DNA from: Paenibacillus peoriae
GTDB taxonomy: Bacteria; Bacillota; Bacilli; Paenibacillales; Paenibacillaceae
Length of the DNA: 64,000 nt
Direction of reading: 5' to 3'
Assembly: GCF_022531965.1 (NCBI RefSeq)
Contig: NZ_CP092831.1
Span: 648,001 to 712,000 of the forward strand
Within the stretch, counting starts at the first letter, position 1. Every line of letters starts with the position of its first letter. The notes under the pieces are model-generated. The model saw only the letters and a program-made list of their open reading frames with translations. It was not told where the DNA came from and did not search any database. Both the position numbers and the translations under genes were made by a program. Below are positions 41,217 through 63,603 of the stretch, piece by piece.

Positions 41217-41221
41217 CGCCC

Positions 41222-42193: not shown

Positions 42194-42195
42194 TC

Positions 42196-44410: not shown

Positions 44411-44431
44411 ATTTTTAGCAATACATGTGAG

Positions 44432-44457
44432 TGTGTGGTGTCATAATTAATGAGAAT
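44432..44457 (+). repeat. Left terminal inverted repeat, with flanking GTGAG duplication
   Basis: Starts TGTGTGGTGTCATAAT and ends ATGAGAAT. It is identical over 26 bases to the reverse complement of 63503-63528. The five bases before it (44427-44431) are GTGAG. Confidence 0.95.
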
Positions 44458-44500
44458 GTATTCATAATTAATGAGAAAAAAATTTCATAATTGATGAGAA
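44441..44500 (+). repeat. Three iterated 16-bp subterminal repeats
   Basis: TCATAATTAATGAGAA at 44441-44456 and 44462-44477, and TCATAATTGATGAGAA at 44485-44500, spaced 21 and 23 bases, about two helical turns. The first copy lies within the terminal repeat. They are probable transposase-binding sites. Only one copy is visible at the right end. The rest of 44411-44820 has no gene. Confidence 0.92.
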
Positions 44501-44630
44501 ATGAATATTTATACACTAGTATACATCGGTGGAGTTATTGTATGGTGTCCGAATATAAGAAGATGGCGAAGAAATAAACTATTTGAGGGGAATGATTTAA
44601 AATGACAAAAGAAAAGGATTAGTACTGTAA

Positions 44631-44770
44631 AAATAAAGTAATAGACTGGAGTCGTTGACTTAACAACGTTTTCGAATTGAAGAACCGTCAACTTTTGAGA
44701 AATAAGTTTTAGACTAATCCATTAAATGAAACAGCGGCAGAACAAGACCTGATAAATAAGGTCTTAGACT
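44631..44770 (+). repeat. Three forward copies of a 17-bp motif (nested element, left side)
   Basis: The motif AAATAANGTNNTAGACT occurs at 44631-44647, at 44700-44715 (one base shorter) and at 44754-44770. Spacings are 69 and 54 bases. Two inverted copies lie at 45934-45993. Spaced copies on one side and packed copies on the other recall Tn7 left and right ends. Confidence 0.85.
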
Positions 44771-44778
44771 GCCGCTGT
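44731..44778. terminator. Long hairpin, probable terminator of the frameshifted gene
   Basis: ACAGCGGCAG/CTGCCGCTGT, with an inner stem AAGACCT/AGGTCTT. It overlaps the third 17-bp motif. T-rich sequence follows on the plus side and A-rich on the left. Confidence 0.5.
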
Positions 44779-44820
44779 TGTTGTTAAACTAACGTTTCCC
44801 GTTAGTCTAACATTACATAT

Positions 44821-45692
44821 TTAACTATTTATAAAGTTTTTTAAATCATTTTCTATAAAGTGATTTGGTTTCCATCCTTTTATTAGCTTATCTACTAAAA
44901 ATGTATCTACCGCACTCAATGAAATTCCTAATAAAGTGCCAGCTCCTGAGCCACCTACTGTATTAAGTAAACCTGCACCTGTAAACAGCCCAACCTGATT
45001 GTTTTAGATGGTAATTTCTCAGCCCAAGTATTTGCATTATTAGCATTAAAGTATTCCTGTATTAAATTAGCTTCTGGGGGTAAATCACCAATAAACTCCT
45101 TGAATTTTCTACTATTTTCATATATAGATATATACTCTGAAAAAGTCTTTTCCCCGGAATTCAAAACTCCTCTAACATTTCCAGTTTTCAGTACAAAATT
45201 ATTAAATGTTTCTATACTATTACTTCCACTAACGATTTTGTTATAAAGGGAATCAAATCTGTTCGCAATTAAGATAGAAGATGATGGGCTTAATTGGAAA
45301 TCCGATGAGTGCTTTGACCATACTTCAAAGCTAGAAAAAGTCGAAAAATAACTTCCTAGAAATGAGAGAGGGTCAATTATCTCTTTACTAATATTATGTT
45401 CTAATTCATATCTTTTTAAAAGAGCATCATCTTCATCCATTGAGGTAAACATTATTTCTGTTTTATCATCGTGGTGGAAAGTTCTAGTAACTGGTACAAC
45501 CCAGAAATAAACTAATTCAATATTTTCTTTGTGTTCTTCTAAAAATGGAATAAATTCAGCGGGATGGACTTGTGAAAACAAACGATTTAACAGATTCTCA
45601 TTGACGATTATTTTTACCTTATCATAAAAAATTGCTTTCTCTGCTATTGTCCCTAAATCGCAATCACTAGAAACACATATACTTTCAAACAT
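44821..45692 (-). pseudogene. Unrecognised gene broken by a frameshift near its 3' end
   Basis: From ATG 45692 (MFESICVSSDCDLGTIAEKA; GGAGG eight bases upstream) the frame runs to a stop at 44955. A one-base shift near 44,995-45,000 restores VGLFTGAGLLNTVGGSGAGT, then SLSAVDTFLVDKLIKGWKPN, to a natural-looking stop at 44821. The corrected protein is about 290 residues, mostly helical, with a Gly-rich C-terminal segment that could be membrane-active. I do not recognise the family. It lies between the forward and inverted 17-bp motifs, so it is the likely cargo of the nested element. Confidence 0.65.
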
Positions 45693-45933
45693 TACAGCAA
45701 CCTCCATATAATCCACATGGTATAATCTACCATTACTAATCTGCTGCATTAATTCAAGTACATTTATTCACAATCCATATAGTAATTTTAACATAAAGAC
45801 TCAATAATAAATCACTCCCCCCTTATGAGGGATCAATATTTTTTACAATGCTACAACCATACTAGTTATTGAAATCTCATGGTTAACCTATCTGTCCGTT
45901 AGCTTAATGAAGCATCGTCAGTCTCTCTATTTT

Positions 45934-46003
45934 CTCAGTCTACAACTTTATTTGCTGAGAAAATACTTTATTTTTTAGTCTAGAACGTTATTTTCTCCTG
46001 ACA
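45934..46003 (-). repeat. Packed inverted copies of the 17-bp motif (nested element, right side)
   Basis: On the minus strand AAATAACGTTCTAGACT (45977-45993) and AAATAAAGTTGTAGACT (within 45934-45953) flank a partial copy AAATAAAGTATTTTCT (45954-45973). The stretch ends TGACA at 45999-46003, so read from the right it begins TGTCAGGAGAAAAT, a TGT-type transposon end. I found no matching 5-bp duplication on the left. The rest of 45693-46570 shows no gene beyond a C-terminal-like fragment (TTGSMLKEARRMMGSES, about 46055-46121). Confidence 0.75.
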
Positions 46004-46160
46004 ATTAAAATATGCTGATGTTATTGAGTATTGTGGTACTACTGATTCTTTGGGGTGGCTAATGAGTACAACAGGTTCAATGCTAAAAGAAGCCAGGAGA
46101 ATGATGGGCTCGGAGTCTTAAGTAGGATAGGAAAGTAAATAATATGTAATTTCTCCGAAT

Positions 46161-46191
46161 AGGTAGGTTCAATTGCGAACCTACCTTTTTT
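46161..46191 (+). terminator. Terminator hairpin
   Basis: AGGTAGGTTC/GAACCTACCT, followed by TTTTT. It follows the short gene fragment ending at about 46121. Confidence 0.8.
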
Positions 46192-46570
46192 CATTGAATA
46201 CAGTTATAGCTATTTCTATAAATAAAAAAATTATTTGTATTATGCGACATAAGGACAATTTATTTTTAAATATATCTTTTAAGAAAATCTAATATAAACG
46301 TATTATTTATATCAGATTCATTTAAGTATAAACTGCTACTTATAAGCCTAACTTTATGCAAATGCAATAATTAGAAAGGAGATAGGGCTGAATTGTGAAG
46401 AGGTTTTTCGTCTTTTTACAAATGAGATCTACGCTAAATGCTTCTCTTAACTCATTTTAATTTAGTTACCAAAATACCTTCTACAGTTCGGGCGCTTACT
46501 CATCTGAAAAATTCATTACACATCAAAACTTAATTAACGCGAAAAACATAACTTATTTGGAGGAATATCA

Positions 46571-46792
46571 TTGAAAATCAAAGTGCTGATTCAATTTCTT
46601 ATTTATTTATGTCTATATTGTAATGATAGAAGTACACTATGGTTATTAACTATAAGGAGCAAAAAAATAAAACATAAGAATGTGAGAAAGATTAATTTTT
46701 TAGTTTTGCTATCTCTCTCATTCATACTACCTTGGTATCTGAAAATCTTATTCATCTTACCTTGCTTAAAAATAACAGTGTATATGCTCTGA
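46571..46792 (+). CDS. Possible small hydrophobic protein
   Basis: TTG 46571 has GGAGG eight bases upstream and opens a 73-residue frame with two hydrophobic stretches (LIQFLIYLCLY; FLVLLSLSFILPWYLKILFIL). I do not recognise it. It may be a gene fragment. Confidence 0.3.
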   Translation: MKIKVLIQFLIYLCLYCNDRSTLWLLTIRSKKIKHKNVRKINFLVLLSLSFILPWYLKILFILPCLKITVYML

Positions 46793-46832
46793 ATAAAAAT
46801 GGTTCCCTGTATCTTTGTTACATACAACTTGA

Positions 46833-47843
46833 TTAGGAAGACTTCGTGGAGCCTCTATGAACGATGCATGTCTCAAGATGAATGGTCTCATTCCGTCGAT
46901 CCGGCTGCTCCAATCGAGCCAACAAGGACTCAACGACGCGTGTACCGAGTCCGTACGGATAAGTATGTACGGTCGTGAGCGGAGGATCGATAATCTTGGC
47001 ATTAGCAATATCGTCAAAACCTGTTACCTCGATTTGTCCAGGAACATCGATGTGCAACTCCTTTAGCGCACGAATAACCGAAATTCCAATATCATCGTTG
47101 GCACAAACAAATGCTGTCGGAAGCTTTGGAAGCTGCTTCAACTGTTCAAGCATCCACTCAACAGATAGATAAGGATTGTTGTCCTCAAGCTTGATGCTGA
47201 ACGTCTCTCCAGATGAAGCGCGATGCATCCGGAGGGCTTGATCGTAACCAAGCCAACGCTCATAGAAGCTTCGACAGTGATTGTGGTCTCCGATAAATCC
47301 AATCTCCGAATGGCCGCGTCCAATGAGAGAACGAGTAAGATTGTATGTCGTGCGGTGATTCTCCATCAAGAGGATGTCGAATTTGTGTGGAGAGTTCAAC
47401 GACTCTGGCAAAAAATCGATAAATACCGTTGGAATGCCCGTGTTTAGAATAGTTTCAATATAGGCTTCTTGGAAGATCTCAATACAAACAATTCCGTTCA
47501 CATTTGATTGGTTAATATTGGAGGGAAGTGTGCATGAATGGATATCCTCAGGATTGACAAGAGATAAGATCAGATTAAAGCCTTCAGCGCGCAGGGAGGT
47601 TTCCATTCCTTTAATCGTTTCAGAGTAGAAGCTGATGGCGTTAATGTCCCCTCGTGTAAGAAGAGCAATATTGCCTCCATTCATAAAACTGTAGTTTTTG
47701 TATTTCATCTCCGCTGCTTTTTGGATTACTCTCTTTTTTGTGCCCTCTGGAATTTGCGGATGGTTGTTGAGGGCTTTGGATATGGTATTTCGAGACAGCC
47801 CCATTGCATCCGCGATGTCTTGAACCGTTACTTTCTCAGCCAT
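46833..47843 (-). CDS. LacI-family regulator 1 of the fructan module
   Basis: A 336-residue protein. The helix-turn-helix is VTVQDIADAMGLSRNTISKA, with hinge helix region and periplasmic-binding-like effector domain ending GFDDIANAKIIDPPLTTVHT. It is a clear paralog of the regulator at 55339: both share the unusual SRNT, K(N/Q)(Y/F)S(F/Y)M and VFIDF/CxxD stretches. I chose ATG 47843 (AAAGGAGC upstream). It is divergent from the secreted fructanase, about 1.3 kb away. Confidence 0.94.
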   Translation of the reverse strand: MAEKVTVQDIADAMGLSRNTISKALNNHPQIPEGTKKRVIQKAAEMKYKNYSFMNGGNIALLTRGDINAISFYSETIKGMETSLRAEGFNLILSLVNPEDIHSCTLPSNINQSNVNGIVCIEIFQEAYIETILNTGIPTVFIDFLPESLNSPHKFDILLMENHRTTYNLTRSLIGRGHSEIGFIGDHNHCRSFYERWLGYDQALRMHRASSGETFSIKLEDNNPYLSVEWMLEQLKQLPKLPTAFVCANDDIGISVIRALKELHIDVPGQIEVTGFDDIANAKIIDPPLTTVHTYPYGLGTRVVESLLARLEQPDRRNETIHLETCIVHRGSTKSS

Positions 47844-47897
47844 AATAAGCTCCTTTTTATCCTGCTTCATAAAATCTTAGATGATAAACAAAAATTT

Positions 47898-47912
47898 ATT
47901 CAAATGTAAATG
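47898..47912. promoter_or_regulatory. Candidate LacI operator upstream of regulator 1
   Basis: ATTCAAATGTAAATG, 55 bases upstream of the regulator start. The core TTCAAATG recurs at 56453 and 56623 in front of the second regulator and the importer. Confidence 0.5.
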
Positions 47913-48170
47913 TGAATGTGGTTTTTAGCTTGAAAACAATTCTTTGATCTTGCATACTGCTAATAAACATTCCCCTCTTATACTACACTACTCTTTGCCT
48001 TTTTTGTAGTAAGAGTTAGATAAAAAAGATTCTATACTATTAGGATAAATCGGTGTTCTTCTAAGAAAAGAAAGAGAGCTAGACCCCTTCTCGTGAGGGT
48101 TTGCTATCAAGGAAATATATAAACTTAAACAAGTAACAGAGTGAGTGGGATTTTCATTGCTTTTTATTTT

Positions 48171-48184
48171 TGAAAGCGCTATAC
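48171..48184 (+). promoter_or_regulatory. Weak cre-like site
   Basis: TGAAAGCGCTATAC fits TGWAANCGNTNWCA at 12 of 14 positions, failing at the last two. It lies in the long space between regulator 1 and the fructanase gene. Confidence 0.35.
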
Positions 48185-48309
48185 TTTTGGTTATATAAAT
48201 TAATGTTTATAAATATTGATTATAAATGTAAACTTGATGAACAATTAAATGCACAAGTATAAGTATTTTGAGGGTAAGGATGGAGGTAAACTAAAATGAG
48301 CTCTGTATA

Positions 48310-48935
48310 ACCGGCTGTGATTTTATTGAGCTTTTCCGCCGGATAGCCAAATTACAGATTCGCTACACAACTCCTAAGACGGGGTCGAAAATTACAAACA
48401 CTGAGTATTCTGCGGCGGGTCTTGCCGTTCCCGTTGGCTGGGAAACCGATGTCAATGCAGCAGTTTATAGCGAGATTTAAATGGGGTGCTGCGTAAGGAT
48501 TCCTACTGCTTGTAATATATCGTAGGTACGGGGGGGCGGTGTTAGTGTTTATTCGGAAGGTGAAATTATACATATACTTGTATATCCGAAGAGTGGACAA
48601 ATGCTGACCAGACGGCATTCTGAAGATGAATTCGTTAACATAGGGACGCCTTGAAGGCCATTGAAGCCAGATGAGAAAAAGGACCACGAGCTGCCGTTGA
48701 ACCATATCGCATTAGATATGGAAGCCTTCTATATTGCTGGTCCATAAACCCGTGTCATTTTACTTTTGTCAACTCACAAAATTTTTTGGGCGGCGTTATG
48801 CAGCTGCTGCTGATTTTCCCGCTGAACCGGTAGGTTGTGCTCCGGAACCTGAACGGTTATTTCAATTTAAGTGCCATCTTGGAGCATAAGGATGAGTATA
48901 GTGTTCCACCGGGCTCGGATATTATTGAAAATTAA
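48310..48935 (+). pseudogene. Heavily decayed coding sequence, unrecognised
   Basis: Plus-strand pieces look coding but lie in different frames: IELFRRIAKLQIRYTTPKTG followed by TEYSAAGLAVPVGWETDVNA (48330-48479); VGTGGGVSVYSEGEIIHILV after a shift in a G run near 48,530; and LNGYFNLSAILEHKDEYSVP ending at 48935. At least two shifts and internal stops separate them. I cannot name the family. Confidence 0.4.
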
Positions 48936-49058
48936 CAAAAAGGGAAAGAGAGAGGGGAGTCGGAGTTTGAACATTCCCAATAGTCTCGTTCAAATCCTAA
49001 AATAGAAATCACAAGTTCAAGCTCTATATATTTTATAACAAATTTAATATGCTATTCC

Positions 49059-49107
49059 GGCCAGTTACTGTGCTGTAACTGGCCGCCTTCTACTTTTTTG
49101 GTAGAAG
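49059..49107 (+). promoter_or_regulatory. Tandem hairpins in the fructanase leader
   Basis: GGCCAGTTAC/GTAACTGGCC (49059-49084) is followed by CTTCTAC/GTAGAAG (49086-49107), 37 bases before the start codon. The first may end an upstream transcript. Together they could attenuate or stabilise the fructanase message. Confidence 0.55.
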
Positions 49108-49143
49108 ATGATTATTCCGTAGAGTAGAAATGGAGGGTAATCG

Positions 49144-52100
49144 ATGAAAAAGAAATTCAAAGCTGTGCTGCACATCCTCATGGTGATGGCTATTATTATG
49201 ACTTCATCTGGAGTTTACGCCGCTAGTCCTGATACCGGCTGGGCTGCACGGGCGGAAGGTAACACAGTAAAATCGGAAAAGGAGGGTCTTTCTATTTTTG
49301 AAAACGTTATAAATCTAAATACAAATTTGACAGGATGGCAGGTAAAAGGAAATGGCAAGTGGGGAGATGCCGCAGAAGGGCTCCTGCTGACATCTGATCC
49401 GCAGGAGGACGTGATGGCCATCTCAGAAACAATAGCAGATGATTTCCTGTATGAAGCCGATGTTATGATCAAGGATATGCAAGCGGATGCTTCTTTGCTC
49501 TTCCGTTCCAATGAAGACGGATTGAATTCGTATATGCTTCAAATTGCACCGCAGTCCGGTATTATCCGTTTAAAAGATGCGGGCAGTGGAGCAGGTAAAT
49601 TAAATGAAGAGCATCCGGTTTCGCTCAAGAAAGGGGAGATCTATCATCTCAAGGTAAAAGCTGAAGGGGCCTCGCTGAAAGTATATTGGGGAACTCAATA
49701 TAAGCCTGTGATTGATGTTCAAGACAGTTCATACCGATCTGGCCGCCTTGGACTTCACGTCTGGGATGGGTCAGCCTTGTTCCAAAACATAACCGTTAGC
49801 GATCTGAAAGGGAATCTGGGTTTGGTACTTGTGAAAAAAGGACAGTGGCAGCCTGACCTCAGCGGCCAAAAAGGAACGTCTGTGAACCAGAGCAAGGCTC
49901 AGCAAATCTATAGCAGGCAAGCTGCTGACTTTGTATATGAAGGAACAATCGTTTTCCGCTCCGATGCTGCTGCCGCTCTAGCTTTCCGGTCCTCTACCGA
50001 TGGAACACGTGGATATGAAGCTACTCTGGTGAAGGAAGGAGAGCAGGTCCGCGTATCGCTGACGAAAGCGGATGGAACTGCAATTGCAGGCTCAGAGCGA
50101 CCTTATCCGAGCTTAGCGGGGGCGAAGCATTATATGGAAGTAAAGGCAATGGGTAACCGGATTCAAGTTTTCGTGGACGGTTATACTCCACCAGCAATCG
50201 ATGTAACGGATCATTCGTATTCAACAGGAAACGCCGGTCTTGTTGTGAAAAAGGGAAGCGCTTACTTTCAGGATGCTTATGTCACGGAGTCTAATAATTA
50301 TTATACTGAAACCTATCGTCCCCAGTATCATTATACACCGATCCGTGGGTACGCCAGTGACCCGAACGGGTTGGTCTATTTCGAAGGTGAATACCATCTT
50401 TTCCATCAGGATGGAGGCACATGGGCCCATGCCGTCAGCAAGGATATGCTGAGCTGGAAACGTCTGCCGATTGCACTTCCGTGGAATGATTACGGGCATA
50501 TCTGGTCCGGATCTGCTGTGGCGGATGTAACGAATACTTCAGGCTTATTTACGGATTCGGGCGGCAAAGGTCTGATCGCCTATTATACTTCCTATAACCC
50601 GGATGGTCCTAATGGCAACCAGCGCATTGGCCTTGCTTACAGCAAGGATCAGGGGCGTACGTGGCATTATGCCAAGAATCGTCCGATCGTGGTTGAGAAC
50701 CCCGGCAAGAACGGGGAAGAACCGGGGGGGTGGGATTTCCGCGACCCTAAGGTGATTCGCGATGACGAGCATAATCGCTGGGTCATGGTAGTGTCCGGTG
50801 GTGATCATATCCGGTTCTTTACATCGGCTAATTTGCTGGACTGGACGTTGACCGACAATTGGGGTTATGGAGATTATGTTCGTGGCGGTGTGTGGGAATG
50901 CCCTGACCTGTTCCCACTGGTCGTGCAGGAAACGTCAGAGAAGAAGTGGGTTCTCATGATCAGTACAGGGGCGAATTCGGCAACAGGAGGATCGGATTCT
51001 GAATATTTTGTGGGAAGTCTGACTGCAGAGGGGAAATTCGTAAATGACAATCCGGCAGGAAAGGTGCTGAGAACGGATTTTGGCAAGGAGTATTATGCAT
51101 CCATGTCTTTCTCGGACATGACGGATGGGCGCAGAGTGATGTTGGCGTGGATGTCCAACTGGGATTATCCGTTCGCTTTTCCGACTTCGGGCTGGAAGGG
51201 GGGACTGACTGTTCCGAGAGAGGTTGCTCTGGTCATGACCCCAGACGGACTCCGTCTCGCCCAGGGTCCGATCAAGGAGATGGAACATCTGCGCAGCAGG
51301 CTGTTCTCTGTAACTGACAAGATGATCAATCCATCTTCTCAAAACCTGCTGAAGGGACTTGTTTCTGGAGCATATGAGATTGAAGCCGAACTGGAGATTC
51401 CGGCTGGAAGTAACGTAACAGAGTTTGGTTTTAATCTACGTGAAGGTGTGAATCAGAAGACTGTGGTGGGTTATAAGCCAGGCGAAAGTAAATTGTTCGT
51501 GGATCGCTCTGCTTCCGGAGCTACGGATTTCTCCAATCTGTTTACCACAAGACATGAAACGGGGATGAAAGCCGAGAACAAGCGGATCCAGATGCGGATT
51601 TTGGTGGATGAATCCTCTGTTGAGGTCTTCGCTAATGGAGGCAAGGTGGTTTTCTCCGAGGTCATATTTCCTGATCCGGCCAGTAGGGAGATGAGCTTCT
51701 ATAATCAGGGTGGCAATGTGAAGATTGTTTCTCTGTCGGTAAACAAGCTTGGATCAGTGTGGAATTCGGATAACGATTCGCCACTACGGATTGCAATGGA
51801 CACGGGTGACCGTGAACTAGGGATAGGGCAAAGCGAAACGCTGCGGGCGGCAGTGGAGAATGGGCCTGGCAATGGTGTTCACCCGCTGGAGTGGAAATCC
51901 AGTAATGCCAAGGTGGTAGGCATAAAGGGAGCCGGCGCTTCTCAGGCAACTCTTATGGCCAAAAAAGAGGGCGAGTCCGTCATTACTGTATCCACCCCGA
52001 ATGGAAAGGCATCCGCCAGCCTTCTTGTAAAAGTCTCTGGCGGCGAGTTTCATACCAGTCTCAGCGGCTGGACCCCAGATCCGTCAATGGCTTCATGGGT

Positions 52101-52956
52101 ACTCAGCAAGGATGGAATTCGTGGAAGATACTCAAGCGACGCGAATTATATGGCCCAGGAGCAGGCTGGGGATTTTACTTATGAAGCTGAACTGAAGCTT
52201 GGCACGTCCGGCGGGGCTGGTTCACTTCTGTTCCGTGCAAGCGAGGATGGGCACAGCGGCTACTACCTGAATCTAGATCCTAACATGAAGTCTATTCGCC
52301 TGTTCTACAAAATAGATGGACGATTCGAGGAACGACAGGTTCTGGCGAAAGTCCCGGCCTTCATCCAGCGAGGCCAAACCTATAAAATAAAGATTCAAGC
52401 GGAAGGCCCGCATATCGTGGTACATATGGGAGGACTGAAAATAATGGATCTGAAGGATGGGACCTTTGCCGAAGGTCATTTCGGACTTCATGTCTTTGGC
52501 GGCTCTGTCTCTTATCAGAATGTAAATGTGACAGGAGGGAAACCGGCCAAGTTGAGGGTATCAAGCCTCGTGAACGTAGCATTCCAAAAATCCATATATA
52601 CAGCCCGCCTGGCAAATGGCGAAGCAGTTAGTGTACAGGATGCAAATGAAGCCTCGGATCAAAAATGGGTGTTTGTGCCGACCGGAGATGATGCAGGTTC
52701 CTATTCCATCCGAACGACCTCCGGACAGGCGCTGGATCTGGACGCGGAGCACAATAAAATTCAGCTCTATTCTTATTTGGGCTACAATAATCAGCGGTGG
52801 ATTGTCCACAAAAATAGGGATGGTTCGGTTGTCATTATCTCAGTTTATCATAATAGGGCTTTGACCATATCCGAGGATGGTTCAAAGCTTACGTTAGAGA
52901 CTCCTCCAACGGATGAAATGCGACGAAATAGGTGGAAAGTAAGCTCTGATTTTTAG
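49144..52956 (+). CDS. Secreted multidomain GH32 fructanase (levanase/inulinase type)
   Basis: A 1270-residue secreted enzyme. Signal peptide (about 1-27, ILMVMAIIMTSSGVYA). Two concanavalin/laminin-G-like modules (about 45-222, 225-385). GH32 domain from about 388: nucleophile motif YASDPNG (family WMNDPNG, here with changed flank), FRDPK near 532 and acid/base E in WECPDLF near 584. The GH32 C-terminal beta-sandwich ends near 877. A Big-2-like domain (about 880-965), a third laminin-G-like module (970-1132) and a ricin-type beta-trefoil (1138-1270) follow. No anchor is present. It probably cleaves levan or inulin. GGAGGG precedes the ATG. Confidence 0.94.
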   Translation: MKKKFKAVLHILMVMAIIMTSSGVYAASPDTGWAARAEGNTVKSEKEGLSIFENVINLNTNLTGWQVKGNGKWGDAAEGLLLTSDPQEDVMAISETIADDFLYEADVMIKDMQADASLLFRSNEDGLNSYMLQIAPQSGIIRLKDAGSGAGKLNEEHPVSLKKGEIYHLKVKAEGASLKVYWGTQYKPVIDVQDSSYRSGRLGLHVWDGSALFQNITVSDLKGNLGLVLVKKGQWQPDLSGQKGTSVNQSKAQQIYSRQAADFVYEGTIVFRSDAAAALAFRSSTDGTRGYEATLVKEGEQVRVSLTKADGTAIAGSERPYPSLAGAKHYMEVKAMGNRIQVFVDGYTPPAIDVTDHSYSTGNAGLVVKKGSAYFQDAYVTESNNYYTETYRPQYHYTPIRGYASDPNGLVYFEGEYHLFHQDGGTWAHAVSKDMLSWKRLPIALPWNDYGHIWSGSAVADVTNTSGLFTDSGGKGLIAYYTSYNPDGPNGNQRIGLAYSKDQGRTWHYAKNRPIVVENPGKNGEEPGGWDFRDPKVIRDDEHNRWVMVVSGGDHIRFFTSANLLDWTLTDNWGYGDYVRGGVWECPDLFPLVVQETSEKKWVLMISTGANSATGGSDSEYFVGSLTAEGKFVNDNPAGKVLRTDFGKEYYASMSFSDMTDGRRVMLAWMSNWDYPFAFPTSGWKGGLTVPREVALVMTPDGLRLAQGPIKEMEHLRSRLFSVTDKMINPSSQNLLKGLVSGAYEIEAELEIPAGSNVTEFGFNLREGVNQKTVVGYKPGESKLFVDRSASGATDFSNLFTTRHETGMKAENKRIQMRILVDESSVEVFANGGKVVFSEVIFPDPASREMSFYNQGGNVKIVSLSVNKLGSVWNSDNDSPLRIAMDTGDRELGIGQSETLRAAVENGPGNGVHPLEWKSSNAKVVGIKGAGASQATLMAKKEGESVITVSTPNGKASASLLVKVSGGEFHTSLSGWTPDPSMASWVLSKDGIRGRYSSDANYMAQEQAGDFTYEAELKLGTSGGAGSLLFRASEDGHSGYYLNLDPNMKSIRLFYKIDGRFEERQVLAKVPAFIQRGQTYKIKIQAEGPHIVVHMGGLKIMDLKDGTFAEGHFGLHVFGGSVSYQNVNVTGGKPAKLRVSSLVNVAFQKSIYTARLANGEAVSVQDANEASDQKWVFVPTGDDAGSYSIRTTSGQALDLDAEHNKIQLYSYLGYNNQRWIVHKNRDGSVVIISVYHNRALTISEDGSKLTLETPPTDEMRRNRWKVSSDF

Positions 52957-52969
52957 TTCTATCCTGTAG

Positions 52970-53003
52970 AAAAGCCCCTTCGCTTGGCGTAGAGGGGCTT
53001 TTG
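52970..53003 (+). terminator. Terminator of the fructanase gene
   Basis: AAAAGCCCCT pairs with AGGGGCTTTT, with a 13-base loop. Confidence 0.85.
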
Positions 53004-53835: not shown

Positions 53836-53838
53836 CAA

Positions 53839-54274: not shown

Positions 54275-54313
54275 AAAGGTGTCCAGCGACCCTAGGATCG
54301 TCGGGACACCTTT
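54275..54313 (-). terminator. Terminator of the fructokinase-LacI transcript
   Basis: AAAGGTGTCC pairs with GGACACCTTT. On the minus strand the T run follows the stem, just after the fructokinase stop. Confidence 0.85.
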
Positions 54314-54320
54314 GCTGTTC

Positions 54321-55316: not shown

Positions 55317-55338
55317 TTTGATTCACCTCTTGGTAGAT

Positions 55339-56373
55339 TTAGTTTAGAACAGGGGTCGAGTCCCGGTATACGATATCCGTTGCAACATGAGTCACTCGGT
55401 ATGGCATGGTATTGTCTTTGATTCTGGACAATAACATTTCGGCTGAAATAATACCCATCTGACTACTGTAAATATGCACGGTTGTAAGATGAGGCTCGAC
55501 AACCCGGGATTCCGAAGCATCATCGAACCCGCAGACAGCAACATCTTCTGGGACTTTAATCCCTTTGTTTTTTAAAGATTTGATCACGTTGATGGCAATG
55601 AAATCATTGGCGCAAATAAAGACGGAGGGACACTCCCTCAGAGCATCCAACTGCTGTTCCATCCAGTTCTCCTCTATAAAGAAGTTGCGGTCAGGCGCTA
55701 CAATGCTATGGGCAGGATCTACGGCGATTCCTGCTTCTGCTAAGGCCCTATTAAATCCGGTCCAGCGTTCATTGAAGCTTTTGCAGTGATTGTAATCGCC
55801 TACAAAACCGAAGCTTTCATAGCCATGATCGATTAATTTCCGGGTAACACAGTATGTGCTGTGTTCATTTTCCATTAATACCAGATCCGCCTTCAATTCT
55901 GGATACATCATATCCGCAGCGCAATCAATAAAAATGGTTGGGATGCAAAGATCTGTGATCAGCTTGCTGTATTCCTTGCTGAACATTTCGATGCAGAAAA
56001 TGCCAGCCACATTCGAAGGTTCAAAATTGCCGGGTAGGGTCATCGAATTGATATCATTCTCACGGACAAAATAAATGGATAAAGTATAGCCCTGTTTGCT
56101 GATTTCCTTCTCCAGTCCGCTGATCAACAAAGATCCAAAGTGTGAGCTATTAGGAAGATTACAGGTCAAAAGTGCGATATTGCCTTGTTTTTCAGAAGCT
56201 GTTTCCATATAAGAAAATTGTTTGTATTTAAGCTCCATTGCTTTTTTGACCACCTTGTCCCTAGTAACGGTGGGGATACTCTCCACTCCATTAAGCGCCT
56301 TGGATGCAGTGTTTCTGGAAATTCCCAAGGCATCAGCGATATCTTGTATCGTAACCTTTGACTTTCTCGTCAT
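55339..56373 (-). CDS. LacI-family regulator 2 of the fructan module
   Basis: A 344-residue protein. The helix-turn-helix is VTIQDIADALGISRNTASKA. The effector domain has GFVGDYNHCKSFNERWTGFN and GFDDASESRVVEPHLTTVHI, closely parallel to regulator 1 (GFIGDHNHCRSFYERWLGYD). I chose ATG 56373 (AAGGTG upstream). It is divergent from the importer operon and probably represses it in the absence of fructo-oligosaccharides. Confidence 0.94.
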   Translation of the reverse strand: MTRKSKVTIQDIADALGISRNTASKALNGVESIPTVTRDKVVKKAMELKYKQFSYMETASEKQGNIALLTCNLPNSSHFGSLLISGLEKEISKQGYTLSIYFVRENDINSMTLPGNFEPSNVAGIFCIEMFSKEYSKLITDLCIPTIFIDCAADMMYPELKADLVLMENEHSTYCVTRKLIDHGYESFGFVGDYNHCKSFNERWTGFNRALAEAGIAVDPAHSIVAPDRNFFIEENWMEQQLDALRECPSVFICANDFIAINVIKSLKNKGIKVPEDVAVCGFDDASESRVVEPHLTTVHIYSSQMGIISAEMLLSRIKDNTMPYRVTHVATDIVYRDSTPVLN

Positions 56374-56452
56374 ATTGTTCACCTTATTCTCCGAATTAAG
56401 ATTCTTCATATTTCTAAATATATAGTATTTTCATGTTTTTAACAATGTATTT

Positions 56453-56467
56453 ATTCAAATGAACAAT
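56453..56467. promoter_or_regulatory. Candidate operator upstream of regulator 2
   Basis: ATTCAAATGAACAAT, 80 bases upstream of the regulator start; shares TTCAAATG with sites at 47898 and 56623. Confidence 0.45.
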
Positions 56468-56577
56468 AAAGGTTTACGTTTGTTTATTTATATTGTGTAT
56501 TTTTGATGTATTTTTGCTAAAAACATTATAATTATCTTGAAATACGCTTTTTGAATGAATTTTTCACCCGAATTATA

Positions 56578-56638
56578 TTGACTAATTAAATGTACATCTG
56601 ATAAATTGTAAGAGTGAAATATGTTCAAATGTAAATTG
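56578..56638 (+). promoter_or_regulatory. Promoter and operator of the fructan importer operon
   Basis: TTGACT (56578-56583), a 17-base spacer and ATAAAT (56601-56606) form a plausible promoter. GTTCAAATGTAAATTG (56623-56638) lies just past the start point, a roadblock position for a LacI repressor. The stretch 56,639-56,804 is the leader and shows no gene. Confidence 0.55.
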
Positions 56639-56804
56639 TAAGCCCATTCATTTTGGGAATGTGTAAAATTCTCGTTCTGTTGGAGGTGTGGATATTACAA
56701 GCAAGTATTTGAAAAACATCTTGGTTAATTATGTCAGAGAGATGACATAACATGGCTTATATTTTGTGTCGTATAACAAGCCGTGAACAGTAGGAGGGAA
56801 AATA

Positions 56805-57764
56805 TTGGCAAATTCGATCATTCAAAAAAGGGGATTAAAGGCTTCAGAAACAAAAAAAAGAAACCATTGGTTAAGCTATATGCTTCGAAATTATATATTG
56901 TATTTGTTTCTGCTTCCGTCCATAATTCTTACCGTCATTTTCAAGTATGTTCCCATGTACGGCTCGATCATTGCGTTTAAAAATTTCAGCCCAAGAAAAG
57001 GCATCCTCGGCAGCGAATGGGTTGGATTTGAACATTTTCAGCGGTTTCTTTCATCACCAAATTTTTATGACATATTAATGAATACGCTTAAATTAAGCGC
57101 TTACGGTCTTATTCTCGGCTTCCCAGTACCCATCATTCTGGCCTTAATGCTAAATCTGGTCAGAGGAGCGAAGTTCAAGAAGAATATTCAGCTTATTGTA
57201 TACGCACCTAACTTCATCTCGGTTGTTGTTGTTGCCGGTATGCTGTTTGTTTTTCTATCGCCAGCTGGAATAGTGAACGCTTTGGTAACAACCTTCACCG
57301 GCAAGCCGATTGCTTTTATGACTGATCCTGCCTATTTCCGAACGGTATATATTTTGTCTGGTATATGGCAAACAGCGGGCTGGTCCTCTATCATTTATGT
57401 GGCCACCTTAGCCAATGTGGACCCGCAGTTGCATGACGCTGCAACAATTGATGGTGCTTCATTGATGAAGAGAATCTTCCACATTGATCTGCCAGCTCTT
57501 AAACCCGTCATGGCCGTCCTGTTCATTCTCGCTGCAGGAGGTATTATGTCGATCGGCTATGAAAAGGCTTACCTAATGCAGACGGCTCTGAACACACCTA
57601 CCTCGGAAATCATCGCGACTTACGTATACAAGGTGGGGTTGCAATCCGGCGATTATGCTTATTCTACGGCAATCGGGTTGTTCAATTCCGTAATTAATGT
57701 ATTCCTGTTGATTTTCGTAAATACCGTCGTCAAGAAGCTGAACGAAGGAGAAGGGCTGTATTAA
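56805..57764 (+). CDS. CUT1 ABC permease, LplB-like (fructan module)
   Basis: A 319-residue permease with about six helices and EAA-type motif DPQLHDAATIDGASLMKRIF. It starts at TTG 56805, nine bases after GGAGGG. It is homologous in layout to the permease at 13199. No ATPase gene is adjacent. Confidence 0.94.
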   Translation: MANSIIQKRGLKASETKKRNHWLSYMLRNYILYLFLLPSIILTVIFKYVPMYGSIIAFKNFSPRKGILGSEWVGFEHFQRFLSSPNFYDILMNTLKLSAYGLILGFPVPIILALMLNLVRGAKFKKNIQLIVYAPNFISVVVVAGMLFVFLSPAGIVNALVTTFTGKPIAFMTDPAYFRTVYILSGIWQTAGWSSIIYVATLANVDPQLHDAATIDGASLMKRIFHIDLPALKPVMAVLFILAAGGIMSIGYEKAYLMQTALNTPTSEIIATYVYKVGLQSGDYAYSTAIGLFNSVINVFLLIFVNTVVKKLNEGEGLY

Positions 57765-57778
57765 AGAAGGAGGTATTT

Positions 57779-58660
57779 ATGGATATTCATTACACCGGGA
57801 AGGACCGGATTCTGCTCATCATCAATTATATTCTACTTGGTTTGTTTGTTCTCGCTATTCTGTTACCGCTGGTTTATGTGGTGCTTTCGTCCTTTTTAAC
57901 TCCAAATACCCTGATTACCAAAGGGTTTGCCATTACATCATCAGACTGGACACTCACGGGATATGCCAAAATCCTAAGCAACAGTGCCATGATCCGCGGT
58001 TTTTTTAATGCTATTTTTTATTCAGCAGCCTTTGCGTTCGCAACCGTATTATTTTCCGTCTTCGCGGCTTATCCGCTTGCGGTTGAAGAGTTGGTAGGGA
58101 AACGGTCCATTATGATCTTTTTCCTGATAACGATGTTTTTCGGTGGCGGTCTGATTCCTACCTATCTGGTGATTAAGGATTTAGGCATGTTGAATACGGT
58201 CTGGGCCATTATTCTGCCCGGCTCGATCAGCGTATTCAATATTATTCTGGCAAAGACTTATTTCCAGGGACTTCCGAAAGAACTGTTCCAGGCGGCGAGT
58301 ATAGACGGAGCTTCCGAGCTCAGTATTTTCTTTAAAATCGTCCTGCCGCTTTCCAAGCCTATTATTTTTGTTCTAGCTTTATACGCTTTTGTCGGACAGT
58401 GGAATTCTTATTTCGACGCCATGATTTATCTGGATGATCCGAAGCTGTTTCCGCTTCAACTAGTACTGCGCTCCATTTTGATACAGAATCAGGTTCAGCC
58501 CGGCATGATTGCCGATGCGATGGCACAAGCGGAGCTTAAGAAATTGTCTGAAATGATTAAGTACTCTGCCATTGTCATATCAAGTTTGCCTTTGATTGTC
58601 ATGTATCCATTCTTCCAGAAGTATTTCGAAAAGGGTGTCATGGTAGGTTCGATCAAATAA
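57779..58660 (+). CDS. CUT1 ABC permease, LplC-like (fructan module)
   Basis: A 293-residue permease; EAA-type motif LPKELFQAASIDGASELSIF, C-terminus FFQKYFEKGVMVGSIK. GGAGG precedes the ATG. Fourteen bases separate it from the upstream permease. Confidence 0.94.
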   Translation: MDIHYTGKDRILLIINYILLGLFVLAILLPLVYVVLSSFLTPNTLITKGFAITSSDWTLTGYAKILSNSAMIRGFFNAIFYSAAFAFATVLFSVFAAYPLAVEELVGKRSIMIFFLITMFFGGGLIPTYLVIKDLGMLNTVWAIILPGSISVFNIILAKTYFQGLPKELFQAASIDGASELSIFFKIVLPLSKPIIFVLALYAFVGQWNSYFDAMIYLDDPKLFPLQLVLRSILIQNQVQPGMIADAMAQAELKKLSEMIKYSAIVISSLPLIVMYPFFQKYFEKGVMVGSIK

Positions 58661-58678
58661 CAAATCGGGGGAATAGAG

Positions 58679-60298
58679 ATGAAAAAAACATTACTAACCT
58701 TGTCTGTGTTGGCACTTTCTACTTCACTGCTTGCCGGATGCGGCGGTTCGGGCAATAATTCTGCGGCATCCGAAGATTACAAGCTGGAAAATGTTACTCT
58801 GCCGCTTAAAGAGAAAGTTACTTTGCATTTTATGACTCAAAGCTCGCCGCTGGCACCTTCCGATCCAAATGAAAAGTTGATTTATAAAAGACTGGAAGAA
58901 AAAACAGGGGTGCATATCGATTTTACCAACTTCACCTCCGATTCCTTCATTGAAAAAAGAAACCTTGCTGTTGCCAGTGGAGATCTTCCAGATGCCATAC
59001 TGGATGCCGGATATTCCGATTACGATTTGTTGAACCTCGGAAAGGATGGAACTATTATCCCTTTAGAGGATTTGATTCAAAAATATATGCCCAATCTGCA
59101 GAAGGTATTAAAGGAAGCGCCTGAGTACAGATCCATGATAACCGCACAGGACGGGCACATTTATGCCTTTCCTTGGATTGAAGAACTGGGTTCTGAGAAG
59201 GAGAGCATTCATTCTGTAAACGACATGCCATGGATCAATGTGGAGTGGCTGAAAAAGCTGGGACTTAAAATGCCAAAAACCACCGAGGATTTAAAAAAAG
59301 TTCTGCTCGCATTTAAAAATGGCGACCCTAACGGAAATGGCCAAGCGGATGAAATCCCGCTGTCCTTTATGCTCAATAACGGCAATGAGGACCTGAATTT
59401 TCTGTTCGGATCATTCGGTCTTGGGGACAACGGCGATCATACGGTAGTGACCAATGAGGGGAAAGTGGTCTTCACTGCCGATCAGGACGGTTACAAAGAG
59501 GGGATTAAATATCTTAATGAGCTGTATAAACTGAACCTGATCGACGAGGAATCATTCGAGCAGGATTATAACACGTATCTAGCCAAAGGTCAGAGTGAAA
59601 GATATGGCCTCTACTTCCAATGGGATAAGGCGAATATTTCAGGAGACAACGATAAATATGAACTGATGAATCCGCTCGCCGGACCAAGCGGTGAAGTCAA
59701 TGTGACCCGCACGAACAATCTCGGCTTTGACCGGGGGAGAATGGTGATTACCAGTGACAACCAAAATCTCGAGCTTACGGCAAAATGGATTGACCAGCTG
59801 TATGATCCTATCCAGTCCGTGCAAGACAACTGGGGTACCTACGGCGACAAAACTCAGCAGAACATTTTTGAATACGATGAAGCGAGTCATATGCTGAAGC
59901 ATCTTCCGCTTAAGGGAACGGCCCCTGTCGAGCTACGGCAAAAAACGAACATCGGTGGTCCATTAGCAATTCTTGACGAGTATTACGGAACGGTTACGAC
60001 TAAGCCCGATGATGCAGTGGGACGGCTTAAGCTCATGAAGGAAAGACTCGTTCCTTATATGAAGGCTGACCATAATTTCCCGAAAGTCTTCTTCTCTCTG
60101 GAGGATCAGAAGCAGATCTCCACATTGGAAACCGATTTGTTTGCTTACGTTAACCGCAAGCGGGCGGAATGGATCAAGACGGGTAAAGTGGAAGAAGAAT
60201 GGGCCGAATATAAAGCCGAGCTGTCCAGACTGGGGCTAGATAAATGGCTGGAAATCAAACAGAAAGGCTATGACAGATATCTCAAAGATCAAAGCTGA
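58679..60298 (+). CDS. CUT1 sugar-binding lipoprotein (fructan module)
   Basis: A 539-residue lipoprotein with lipobox SLLAGC (Cys21). The body starts VTLHFMTQSSPLAPSDPNEK. It is expected to bind fructo-oligosaccharides released outside, from its context between LacI and GH32 genes. GGGGGAA precedes the ATG. Confidence 0.93.
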   Translation: MKKTLLTLSVLALSTSLLAGCGGSGNNSAASEDYKLENVTLPLKEKVTLHFMTQSSPLAPSDPNEKLIYKRLEEKTGVHIDFTNFTSDSFIEKRNLAVASGDLPDAILDAGYSDYDLLNLGKDGTIIPLEDLIQKYMPNLQKVLKEAPEYRSMITAQDGHIYAFPWIEELGSEKESIHSVNDMPWINVEWLKKLGLKMPKTTEDLKKVLLAFKNGDPNGNGQADEIPLSFMLNNGNEDLNFLFGSFGLGDNGDHTVVTNEGKVVFTADQDGYKEGIKYLNELYKLNLIDEESFEQDYNTYLAKGQSERYGLYFQWDKANISGDNDKYELMNPLAGPSGEVNVTRTNNLGFDRGRMVITSDNQNLELTAKWIDQLYDPIQSVQDNWGTYGDKTQQNIFEYDEASHMLKHLPLKGTAPVELRQKTNIGGPLAILDEYYGTVTTKPDDAVGRLKLMKERLVPYMKADHNFPKVFFSLEDQKQISTLETDLFAYVNRKRAEWIKTGKVEEEWAEYKAELSRLGLDKWLEIKQKGYDRYLKDQS

Positions 60299-60395
60299 AA
60301 CATTTAAATGGTAGTATTTCAAATTCATTTGCAAACGAGCAACTCAAATTATTATGTTAAATACCTTATCAACAATCAAGAGGAGAGCGGATACT

Positions 60396-61967
60396 ATGAA
60401 AGAATTAAACCTAACGGACGACTATAGCGGCAGAAAGAGAAAAAGTAACTATAGTGAGAAGTACAGGCCTCAATTTCATTATTCACCGGAGAAAAATTGG
60501 ATGAACGATCCCAACGGCATGGTTTACTTTGAAGGAGAATACCACCTGTTCTACCAGCATACGCCCCATGATACGCAGCCTGATTTTGGCAACATGCATT
60601 GGGGGCATGCGGTAAGCAAGGATCTAGTGCATTGGACTGAGCTTCCACCAGCGATTCCACCTGGGGAGGACGGAGCGATCTTCTCGGGGAGTGCGGTGGT
60701 GGATAAGAACAATACCAGCGGATTTTTCAAAGAGGAAGGATCAGGATTGGTGGCCATTTATACAAATGAGGGCAACAAGGCTCAGCCTGGAAAACCGCAG
60801 GTGCAAAGCATTGCTTACAGCAAGGATAAAGGTCGAACCTGGACAAAATATGAAGGTAACCCGGTTTTATTTCCAACGGACACGCTAGACTTTCGTGATC
60901 CGAAGGTGATTTGGCATGATGAATCATCAATGTGGATCATGGTTCTTGCCGTAAGGGACCGTGTAGAATTTTACACATCTCCAAACCTGAAAGAATGGTC
61001 TTTTGCAAGCGAATTCGGTTCCGACATTCCACATATACACCGAGGGATATTTGAATGTCCTGATATATTTCGAATCCAAGTGGATGAGGATCCTAATACC
61101 ACGAAGTGGATTCTGATGCTAAGCGTCGGGGATAGAAATGGTGTGAATCCAGACGATCCGGAACCACCGGCAGGCGGTTCTGGCATGATGTATTTTGTAG
61201 GCAACTTTGACGGTAAGTCGTTCACGCCAGATGAAGCGTTGGAATCCATCGATACTATCAAATGGGTAGACTATGGATCAGACTTTTACGCGGCCGTGTC
61301 CTGGAATGGCATTTCGAACGAAGACGGACGAAAGATTTGGATCGGCTGGATGAATAATTGGCGTTATGCTACCACGCTTCCTTCAAAGGAATGGCGTGGC
61401 AAGACATCAATTCCCCGGGAGCTACAGCTAAGGACTTATCCCGAGGGACTTCGCCTAATCCAAACACCCATAAATGAATTAAGTCAGCTAAGAAAACCGA
61501 TTTTGTCTCTACAAGACTTGACGATTAAGCCAGATATGAACGTGTTGTCTGATATTTCCGCAGCCAAGGCAGAAATTATTGCAGAATTTGAAATCGGTAC
61601 TGCTATGGAATTCGGGTTTAAAGTACGGAAGTCCGCCAATCAGGAGACGATCATCGGATATAATATCTCGAATGAGGAATTGTTCGTCGATCGGACGAAG
61701 TCGAGCGCCACTGATTTTCATTCAGATTTCACAGCAATACACAAGGCCACTATGAAGCCAGAGCATGAGAGGATACAGTTGAGCATTTATCTGGATTGGT
61801 CAAGTGTCGAAGTCTTCGGCAATCATGGAAAAACAATCATTTCAGACATGATTTTCCCGGACTTCGAAAGTAAGGGACTAGAACTCTACGCCATTGGTGG
61901 AGAACTGAGGGTCGTGTCGCTTCAGATCAATGATCTGGTAAGCATTTGGGGAAATGAGAATGTTTAG
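60396..61967 (+). CDS. Cytoplasmic GH32 fructan/sucrose hydrolase
   Basis: A 523-residue GH32 enzyme with no signal peptide. The motifs are WMNDPNG (nucleophile D38), FRDPK near 168 and FECPD (acid/base near E219); the C-terminal beta-sandwich ends near 520. It resembles exo-acting levanase/inulinase, releasing fructose from imported oligosaccharides. I chose ATG 60396, ten bases after GAGGAG; the frame is open from 60354. Downstream 61,968-62,318 shows no gene. Confidence 0.95.
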   Translation: MKELNLTDDYSGRKRKSNYSEKYRPQFHYSPEKNWMNDPNGMVYFEGEYHLFYQHTPHDTQPDFGNMHWGHAVSKDLVHWTELPPAIPPGEDGAIFSGSAVVDKNNTSGFFKEEGSGLVAIYTNEGNKAQPGKPQVQSIAYSKDKGRTWTKYEGNPVLFPTDTLDFRDPKVIWHDESSMWIMVLAVRDRVEFYTSPNLKEWSFASEFGSDIPHIHRGIFECPDIFRIQVDEDPNTTKWILMLSVGDRNGVNPDDPEPPAGGSGMMYFVGNFDGKSFTPDEALESIDTIKWVDYGSDFYAAVSWNGISNEDGRKIWIGWMNNWRYATTLPSKEWRGKTSIPRELQLRTYPEGLRLIQTPINELSQLRKPILSLQDLTIKPDMNVLSDISAAKAEIIAEFEIGTAMEFGFKVRKSANQETIIGYNISNEELFVDRTKSSATDFHSDFTAIHKATMKPEHERIQLSIYLDWSSVEVFGNHGKTIISDMIFPDFESKGLELYAIGGELRVVSLQINDLVSIWGNENV

Positions 61968-62318
61968 ACAGTAGTTATGATTATCATTCCAATTGAAACG
62001 TTCTTACAACAGAACCCGTTAAGCAGCGGCTTGATTCGACGAAATGGTTACAGCCCGATTGCTTATATCCGTATCTAAACTGGTCTCCAAAACTAATTAA
62101 AGTATTATCTTATGCCTGGACACGTAACCTCCCGTCGGCTCACAACCGTACCGGGGGTTCGTATCCTTAGAAGTTAGCAGAAATCGAAAGACTAACACGG
62201 AGAATTTCATAATATAGTTTTACAGTGGTAAGAGGGCGTAAGAATCTTTCCTTGCATCTTACCTATAATAATATGATGATTGACAATAAGATCATATTCT
62301 TTTCCCAAGGGGGTACCT

Positions 62319-62387
62319 AGTTCTTGTTCTCAGTTCGGGACAAGAACTTGCAGTGGTTATGAAGTCGCCAATTTGGCGGCTTTTTGT
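62319..62387 (+). terminator. Two hairpins, the second a probable terminator
   Basis: AGTTCTTGT/ACAAGAACT (62319-62348) is followed by AGTCGCCA/TGGCGGCT with TTTTT (62363-62386). The second has the form of a Rho-independent terminator. It may end the fructan operon or a lost gene. Confidence 0.7.
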
Positions 62388-62514
62388 TTTACAGATAAAT
62401 GATATTGTCTTGTGTTAAGACAAGGGCAATTAAGCGTTTGAATTAAAATAATGGGGCTGGGTATGCTAAATTAGCAAATATGGAATTTCTTGATTTTCAT
62501 GAAAGGGTGAGACC

Positions 62515-63531
62515 GTCATCATTCTGCAAAAGGTACTAACTTATCTTATTAAACCGGATATATGGTTAGGAACTTTTTTCCCATTTGCTCTTCCGTTTGG
62601 AGTATCAAGAGTATTTCAATGGTTGCATACAGGGAACGGGAGAAATTTACACTGGTTCAGCTTTGATCAAAAAAAGTTTCATGAAACAAGAAATACCTCA
62701 ACTAGTCGTTCCTTTTACAGCAGATCTAAATCAAAATTTGCTGGTGATGAAAGAAATCATCGGGCATAACTCAGAGAGCCTCTGAAAAGAAATATTACTA
62801 AAGTTGAAACTGAAAGAAACCATCTGGCTAGACGTGAAGTTGAACTGTTGAAAGAGATAGATACTCTTAGAACGCAAAGAACAGAATACAGAAGAAAACT
62901 AAGAGCTAGATCCAAAGAGTTTGGGGCAGTTTTACAGTTCAGTCACAATTCCTAAGTTATTAACCCTTCTCGATGAAAGGCCTAAGCTTAGCAATGTGTT
63001 TGCATTCTATCAGTTAGATAAATTCAATAGAAGGTACAATAAACTAAAATTAGCAGCTAGAGAGGTATTAAAACAGGAAAGAATAAAAAGACTACGTGAT
63101 GAAGCTTATAAGGAGAAAATGGCTGCTGGCTATAAAAAAGTTAACGGATATATCGTAAGTGATGAGAGATGACTGGTACCTCTATGATCCAAACAATATT
63201 GTATACCTCATAACAGACTCAAAAATTAAATTAATTGAAGATTTACCAGCTACTGCATCTTTGTATTTAATGATGGAACTGCATATGTTTTTTATATCCA
63301 TTTTGAAACGGAGAATAAAAAAGAAAATGAGAAGTATATTGTAGCGATCGGTGAAGGATTAACCGAGATTCATAAATATATGTTGAACAAAGAAAGTTGC
63401 CAACCGGCATTTTTTGTGCCCTTTTTTGTATCTTTAGGGTTACTCGATGGTAAAATAATGTATACAAGTGGATGTATTTTTATGCATTTAAGCAATGTGG
63501 ATATTCTCATTAATTATGACACCACACAGTG
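62515..63531 (+). pseudogene. Decayed gene module at the right end of the transposon
   Basis: Three linked pieces. First, a startless frame (62515-62769) reads YLIKPDIWLGTFFPFALPFG. Second, a charged coiled coil reads VETERNHLARREVELLKEID to a stop near 62955, continuing after a shift as PKLSNVFAFYQLDKFNRRYN to 63172. Third, a frame overlapping at 63159 starts MMRDDWYLYDPNNIVYLITD; after a shift near 63,265 it reads FNDGTAYVFYIHFETENKKE and runs through the terminal repeat to DILINYDTTQ, with its TGA stop supplied by the GTGAG duplication. I recognise none, and nothing in them looks like a transposase. Confidence 0.5.
63503..63528 (-). repeat. Right terminal inverted repeat, with flanking GTGAG duplication
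   Basis: Starts ATTCTCATTAATTATG and ends ACACCACACA; the exact reverse complement of 44432-44457. The five bases after it (63529-63533) are GTGAG. Confidence 0.95.
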
Positions 63532-63603
63532 AGTAACGGTAATAATTGAGACTGATTTGGTTGATAACCGAGACATTTTTGGGTATATGTTTGAGACATT
63601 TTT

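Follow-up and report, generated by a model that had tools for sequence, protein, structure and literature searches.

Tn7 turns its compact right end to glmS, Tn5053/Tn552-type elements have transposition genes without TnsA, and non-autonomous DNA transposons of the miniature inverted-repeat transposable element (MITE) kind have ends without a transposase and are mobilised in trans. Tn7 is described with three sites in its left end and four in its right (PMC8649781, PMC13370975), and an I-F3 CRISPR-associated transposon (CAST) with six sites, all but one of which are needed for activity (PMC13370975). A survey of Tn7-like elements lists sugar catabolism and transport genes among the cargo, with few complete pathways carried, and delineates elements around tnsB, which places transposase-free ones outside the method (PMC8649781). 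Among the matches listed from the open-licence literature, no title or abstract start concerned Paenibacillus Tn7-like elements or any that sit at an ABC-2 permease gene. Here we analyse a 64,000-nucleotide stretch of the Paenibacillus peoriae genome (contig NZ_CP092831.1, positions 648,001 to 712,000; the window), in which a set of fructan genes lies between perfect inverted repeats at 44432–63528. We judge it likely that this unit derives from a Paenibacillus Tn7-like family, lacks a transposase of its own, was probably mobilised in trans and was inserted with the fructan genes aboard. There is little doubt that a transposase-free Tn7-like element inserted here, at an ABC-2 permease port; that it already carried the fructan genes is favoured on balance. 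The element is delimited by the following features, the two duplicated pentamers being read directly from the sequence (genomes are given below as G numbers).

44427–44431, no strand: target-site duplication GTGAG, left copy
44432–44457, + strand: left terminal inverted repeat, the att-proximal compact end
44441–44500, + strand: three TnsB-type sites TCATAATTRATGAGAA, at 44441, 44462 and 44485 (offsets 9, 30 and 53), spaced as in other att-proximal ends
63461–63519, − strand: stretch whose counterpart in relatives opens with the innermost right-end site, here fused to the terminus with two sites lost (by similarity to G103, G004 and G014)
63503–63528, − strand: right terminal inverted repeat with the sole remaining TnsB-type site (63504–63519)
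63529–63533, no strand: target-site duplication GTGAG, right copy

The inverted pair and its GTGAG duplication, from which an original prediction had started, are exactly as it described them (26/26 bp, 0 mismatches), and its statement that such a pair is unlikely by chance was borne out: at up to 3 mismatches the repeat has two matches in the window and 0 in 100 dinucleotide shuffles. BLAST of 44427–44520 against the own genome (5,839,239 bases in 1 contig) gave no third copy at E ≤ 0.001, and a 25-bp end pattern allowing up to 2 mismatches found, in the whole own genome, both element termini and nothing further. The element thus has the TGT...ACA inverted repeats and the 5-bp target duplication of Tn7-like elements. 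Judged from sequence, the 26 bp is the outermost of several TnsB-type (transposase-type) sites of a Tn7-like family that we call A. Family-A ends occur in 24/75 genus genomes (35 sites), with 0 matches of a reversed-pattern control in every genome, and these other copies flank different cargo and tnsB-like genes, as the original prediction had proposed to look for. Across the genome_contigs collection (one genome per species, 84,980 species), the exact end pattern was found in 15 stretches; 14 of these belong to records under the name Paenibacillus, and the remaining one to a metagenome assembly of Bacilli.

The place of insertion is defined by three neighbouring features.

42130–43098, + strand: gene for an ABC transporter ATPase, preceding the target gene (Pfam PF00005, 7e-29)
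43082–44410, + strand: ABC-2 type permease gene (Pfam PF12698, 5.9e-55), whose 3′ end is the putative attachment site
63529–63600, + strand: remnant left end from another element family (B; TGTGAGTAAC...GAGAC repeated), its first bases overlapped by the GTGAG duplication

The element begins 21 nt past the permease stop codon, and in 11/11 genomes with an A end facing that gene (own, G004, G007, G010, G015, G034, G050, G058, G027, G105 and G111) the end lies 18–22 nt past the stop, so that insertion keeps one orientation and a set spacing relative to a conserved gene, as is characteristic of Tn7-like elements. The permease 3′ end was located in 39/60 genus genomes searched, and all 39 were inspected: an A end follows it in 8 (own, G004, G007, G010, G015, G034, G050, G058), a B end, 14–19 nt from the stop, in 4 (G006, G014, G032, G045), and neither in 27, which include G049, G053 and G040 with other TGT-starting sequence after the permease. 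G027, G105 and G111 lie outside the 39 and were added through the genus-wide end-pattern search, and the permease stop of G037, one of the 27, was missed by the script, so that this genome was judged by eye from the printed sequence. From 63529 onward the right flank of the own element is itself a family-B end; the distal A ends of the own element, G004, G015, G103 and G006 all adjoin a B end, that of G010 adjoins a truncated second A end, and those of G014 and G050 adjoin neither family. The empty site that had been predicted is present, uninterrupted, in G032, which has the B end, no A element and a single GTGAG, and to whose contiguous sequence own positions 40881–44416 and 63529–63644 align. 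The permease site is a chromosomal port where at least two end families stack. The loci with family B at this site are the window from 63529 onward, L014, L015, L017, L019, L020 and L076, several with about three GAGAC-type repeats. In L151 and L156 (G049, G053) the permease stop precedes TGTTAACTTT and then recurring TGTCGGTAACTT-like motifs, which may mark yet another end family.

The ends are asymmetric, with three copies of the 16-bp motif in the left end and one (offset 9) in the right. Of the 35 genus sites, 30 end loci were examined (5 sites had no locus), 20 of them distal or away from the permease gene. Compact ends (offsets 9/30/52–53) make up 10/30 and have the permease gene just outside in 7/10; spread ends (offsets 9 and 60–73) make up 13/30 and have it alongside in 0/13, a third site (offset 112–125) being present in 9/13 and two sites in 4/13; single-site ends account for the last 7/30, with the permease alongside in 3/7. 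Against the three or two sites of these spread ends the own right end has one, and a weight matrix built from 64 sites of other ends found there the terminal site alone and no degenerate extra site above 3 bits. The 59 bp at 63461–63519, 16 of which are the motif, are 83–86% identical (E 2e-12 to 3.7e-9) to the right ends of G004, with three sites, and of G103 and G014, with two each, and stepwise site loss by recombination between direct-repeat sites would be the simplest account of this series. Given the single right-end site, the perfect ends named in the original prediction are no sign of freshness. Because an I-F3 CAST needs all but one of its six sites, the own element may be immobile; with two right-end sites lost it is probably immobile or weakly mobile now, and its being mobile today is doubtful.

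That no transposase lies inside, as originally noted, holds at E ≤ 1e-3: a tblastn search with 13 proteins of two relatives, both Tns and adjacent ones, found no match inside the element at that limit and, relaxed to E = 1, a sole 27-residue TnsC match (E = 0.033). The own genome likewise contains no match to the TnsB of complete relatives at E ≤ 1e-3, nor to the TnsD/TniQ target selector family PF06527, which is present in G004 and G010. A PF09299 search of the own genome was also negative, which is no evidence of absence because the model covers family-A TnsB poorly, the G004 TnsB giving no match (E ≤ 1e-3) and that of G010 falling below cut-off. Complete elements stand at the same permease gene in G004 (33.0 kb, C165:115942–148959, GTGAG on both sides) and in G010 (24.2 kb, C17:9275–33507, ATGTT on both sides, distal end with 5/25 mismatches to that of the window). 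Both encode TnsA (PF08722), TnsB, TnsC (PF05621) and two TniQ proteins (PF06527; large, 592–605 aa, and small, 320–324 aa) together with a tyrosine-recombinase-like and a DndB-like protein; the G004 TnsB matches solved CAST TnsB (best 4.9e-21), and the G010 TnsB is 57% identical to it. TnsA, TnsB and TnsC genes were found inside these two elements and not inside the own one, which we therefore class as a transposase-free derivative and not as a full Tn7-like member.

This state is a recurrent one. A close TnsB (E < 1e-100) occurs in 4/75 genomes (G004, G010, G044, G050), and any match at E ≤ 1e-3 in 14/75, versus A ends in 24/75; in G050 the close TnsB lies between two A ends on one contig. 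Among the seven both-ended elements tested for Tns (own, G004, G010, G015, M1 plasmid (G014), G050, G059), tnsB is present in three and no Tns match (E ≤ 1e-3) was found in the other four; the p-YT9A element (L187 6726–27182), which has a further A end inside, was left out of this count. Transposase-free elements with intact multi-site ends and different cargo are found in G015 and on the M1 plasmid. Among eight both-ended elements, these seven and that of p-YT9A, the 5-bp duplication is exact in own, G004, G010 and G050 (AAAAA, of low complexity). In the complete relatives, tyrosine-recombinase-like genes adjoin the small TniQ (L034 9199–10044, L035 3–680), and in the G004 protein an Asn aligns with the catalytic arginine of Cre (Arg173). 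Complete relatives also carry defence genes by PADLOC, namely GajA/GajB, a PtuA-like protein (PDC-M01A) with its PDC-M01B partner, and LmuA/LmuB (L013 2645–6567, L034 4648–7035, L035 13904–17693).

The cargo of the own element comprises a lone gene near the left end and two modules, i (46.8–53.1 kb) and ii (54.1–62.0 kb).

44955–45749, − strand: 264-aa protein with no Pfam, NCBIfam or PADLOC match
46833–47870, − strand: LacI-family regulator, module i (PF00356, PF13377)
49144–52956, + strand: 1270-aa GH32 enzyme with 3-keto-disaccharide-hydrolase-like and ricin-type lectin domains, module i (PF00251, PF08244, PF06439, PF14200)
54321–55316, − strand: PfkB-family fructokinase-like sugar kinase, module ii (PF00294; best NCBIfam PRK09434 fructokinase, below cut-off)
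55339–56409, − strand: LacI-family regulator, module ii (PF00356, PF13377)
56805–57764 and 57779–58660, + strand: two ABC permease genes, module ii (PF00528 in both)
58679–60298, + strand: extracellular solute-binding protein, module ii (PF01547)
60354–61967, + strand: GH32 fructosidase-like enzyme, module ii (PF00251, PF08244)

On annotation, these families can fairly be read as a complete fructan-use system. The GC content is mosaic (44432–46780, 0.305; module i, 0.461; module ii, 0.433; 62346–63528, 0.342), and 44809–45924, around the 264-aa gene, is 97–98% identical to G102 DNA. A 106-bp repeat beside the fructan genes, 61951–62055, recurs at 81% identity about 12 kb downstream (L011 11393–11498).

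Both modules have relatives elsewhere in the genus. Module ii was matched in G040, G110, G007, G111, G037, G034, G102, G004, G045 and G006; in 8 of them, G110 and G102 being the exceptions, the permease gene could be placed, and there module ii lies elsewhere, and in none of the 10 is there an A end on the same contig as, or within 1 Mb of, module ii. Module i was found, among the matches listed, in G037 (93.5–94.6%) and G004 (mostly 92.5–92.9%, with one 188-bp piece at 81%), and in G045 its GH32 gene, at 93.5%, together with only a small part of the regulator. Module ii is flanked in G007 by an azlC gene and an XRE-type regulator, and G040 has the same neighbours with more DNA; in the own genome 1.75 kb separate these neighbours, a stretch that holds an MFS gene but not module ii. 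Own module ii and that of G040, the nearest relative, are 96.3–96.6% identical, where a core sample gives 96.0% over 4.4 kb. Import of module ii from a distant species was considered and is not favoured, as this identity resembles that of the core. The core-like identity together with the absence at azlCD–XRE in the own genome indicates that module ii was probably resident in the lineage, and suggests that its presence inside the element is a lineage-internal relocation or recapture and not an import from afar; as to direction, loss from the old locus would leave the same picture as acquisition from a close relative. Across G007, G034, G004 and G045 module ii identity (about 89–93%) exceeds that of the core sample (84–86%), which makes exchange of the module among species possible. 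Module i has no close match in G040 (73%), so that its history may differ from that of module ii.

Other family-A cargo appears, by sequence identity, to travel across species. Own positions 69706–72439, part of a second, end-less A remnant, are 98.8% identical to G015 (core 87.8% over 4.4 kb), and G004 shares 4.7 kb at 98.2% with the transposase-free element, 6.3 kb long, that plasmid pPPM1a of P. polymyxa M1 carries (84.4% for 1.0 kb of core). On P. polymyxa YT9 plasmid p-YT9A, 7.2 kb beside a degenerate A end are 90.2% identical to the G040 att locus, a figure that by itself is no evidence of recent transfer. The compact A ends of pPPM1a (L186 22203) and p-YT9A (L187 6726) adjoin identical plasmid sequence, a possible second, plasmid target site. 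In window coordinates the second remnant, without termini, spans 69201–74400 (L011 6201–11400), and its 2.7-kb stretch shared with the G015 element holds serine beta-lactamase-family and erythromycin-esterase-family genes; the cluster shared by p-YT9A and G040 (L187 10640–19200; L012 from 6149) encodes pentapeptide-repeat and phage-baseplate-V-like proteins.

We can now set out how the locus may have arisen. The fructan genes would have been loaded, with lower certainty than the steps that follow, from the lineage's own chromosome, since in two relatives module ii has azlCD on one side and an XRE-type regulator on the other. TnsABC of a complete relative, acting in trans, would then have excised the element from its donor, and a TnsD, corresponding to the 592–605-aa TniQ of the relatives, would have recognised the permease 3′ end. 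The element would have been joined about 20 bp past the permease, directly against the end of an older family-B element and with GTGAG duplicated in the process, and recombination between direct-repeat sites would later have deleted two of the three right-end sites. Several points weigh against this account. With its one-site right end this exact unit may be unable to move, and its cargo may have undergone rearrangement since it inserted. Stretches of module ii of 5 kb or more, 90–96% identical, recur in at least 10 relatives, among the matches listed, and relatives have both modules away from this site with no family-A end found nearby. A second copy of the 19-kb unit appears neither among the matches listed for 75 genomes, at 4 scored candidates each, nor in the plasmid collection. 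The 5-bp duplication is lacking in 3/8 both-ended elements (M1 plasmid, p-YT9A, G059) and matches at 4/5 bases in G015. The original prediction had held that relatives with the same continuous 19 kb and no terminal repeats would speak against it, and G037 comes close, with the modules side by side in the own order, beside an FBPase_2 gene, and no A end in its genome. Its claim that a transposon delivered the fructan system as one unit accordingly stands in part: the insertion is real, and delivery as a unit is weakened by modules elsewhere without ends, by core-like divergence and by the azlCD–XRE gap.

The most serious alternative, unlikely in our estimate yet far from negligible, is that a larger complete A element inserted and that its tns genes and cargo were later replaced by the fructan cluster through ordinary recombination, in which case the ends and GTGAG record a real insertion and the fructan genes never transposed. 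The loss of right-end sites is a rearrangement within the element, and the mosaic GC, the fructan modules elsewhere without family-A ends and the recurrence of the 106-bp repeat outside the element all fit such a replacement, whereas the element holds no Tns remnant at E ≤ 1e-3, the short TnsC match apart, and the cargo-only state is normal for the family, as G015 and the M1 plasmid with their intact multi-site ends illustrate. Two separate insertions at this hot spot, with an intervening deletion that left the fructan genes between a left and a right end, would draw on the stacking seen here (the B end at 63.5 kb, the A remnant at 69.2–74.4 kb, the truncated second A end of G010) and on a GTGAG that could recur at the site, as own and G004 both have it; we hold this improbable, because the deletion must spare both termini and the cargo and because GTGAG is exact, whereas the G015 insertion is shifted by 2 bp (CTTTG/CTGTG). 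That the 26-bp pair arose by chance or as a dispersed repeat, with no tie to insertion, is scarcely credible: the motif does stand as a single site at 7/30 loci, but the empty site, the fixed position behind one gene, the inward pairing around tnsABC in relatives and the reversed control of 0 oppose it, and BLAST uniqueness, shuffles and the genus pattern search rule it out. Insertion of a transposase-free, probably trans-mobilised element with its fructan cargo is the reading we retain as likely. More tentatively, and with more doubt than belief, the family may be split into a few helpers with machinery and more numerous transposase-free shuttles that load native operons, pass between plasmid and permease port, and become fixed by end-site loss.

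What this locus adds is a concrete case in which to ask how such elements may pick up operons from their own host, given a sugar-use set in the element and a main module missing from the relatives' locus. A ends (24/75) outnumber close transposase (4/75) in the genus, and as surveys that start from tnsB are blind to cargo-only elements, Tn7-like gene traffic may be undercounted. Of the kinships first proposed from the TGT...ACA ends and 5-bp duplication, a Tn7-related insertion is supported, and membership in the Tn5053/Tn552 type is contradicted by the TnsA (PF08722) of complete relatives with family-A ends. Those relatives, though not the window, combine a large and a small TniQ with a tyrosine-recombinase-like protein, which likens them to the dual TniQ/TnsD elements and to TnsF of Tn6022, and the G004 protein, by its Asn at the Cre arginine position, resembles the inactivated TnsF described there (PMC10293859). 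With Tn7 and Tn7-like elements the family shares asymmetric ends with multiple TnsB-type sites, and the own element the 5-bp duplication and an insertion point just past a conserved gene, towards which its compact end points; its complete relatives also share TnsA, TnsB, TnsC and TniQ. The own element differs from Tn7 in that no tns genes were found in it, in its one-site right end and in its ABC-2 permease target in place of glmS. Like MITE-like elements it has no transposase and would depend on a helper elsewhere, but where those measure a few hundred bases it spans 19 kb and carries a sugar-use gene set.

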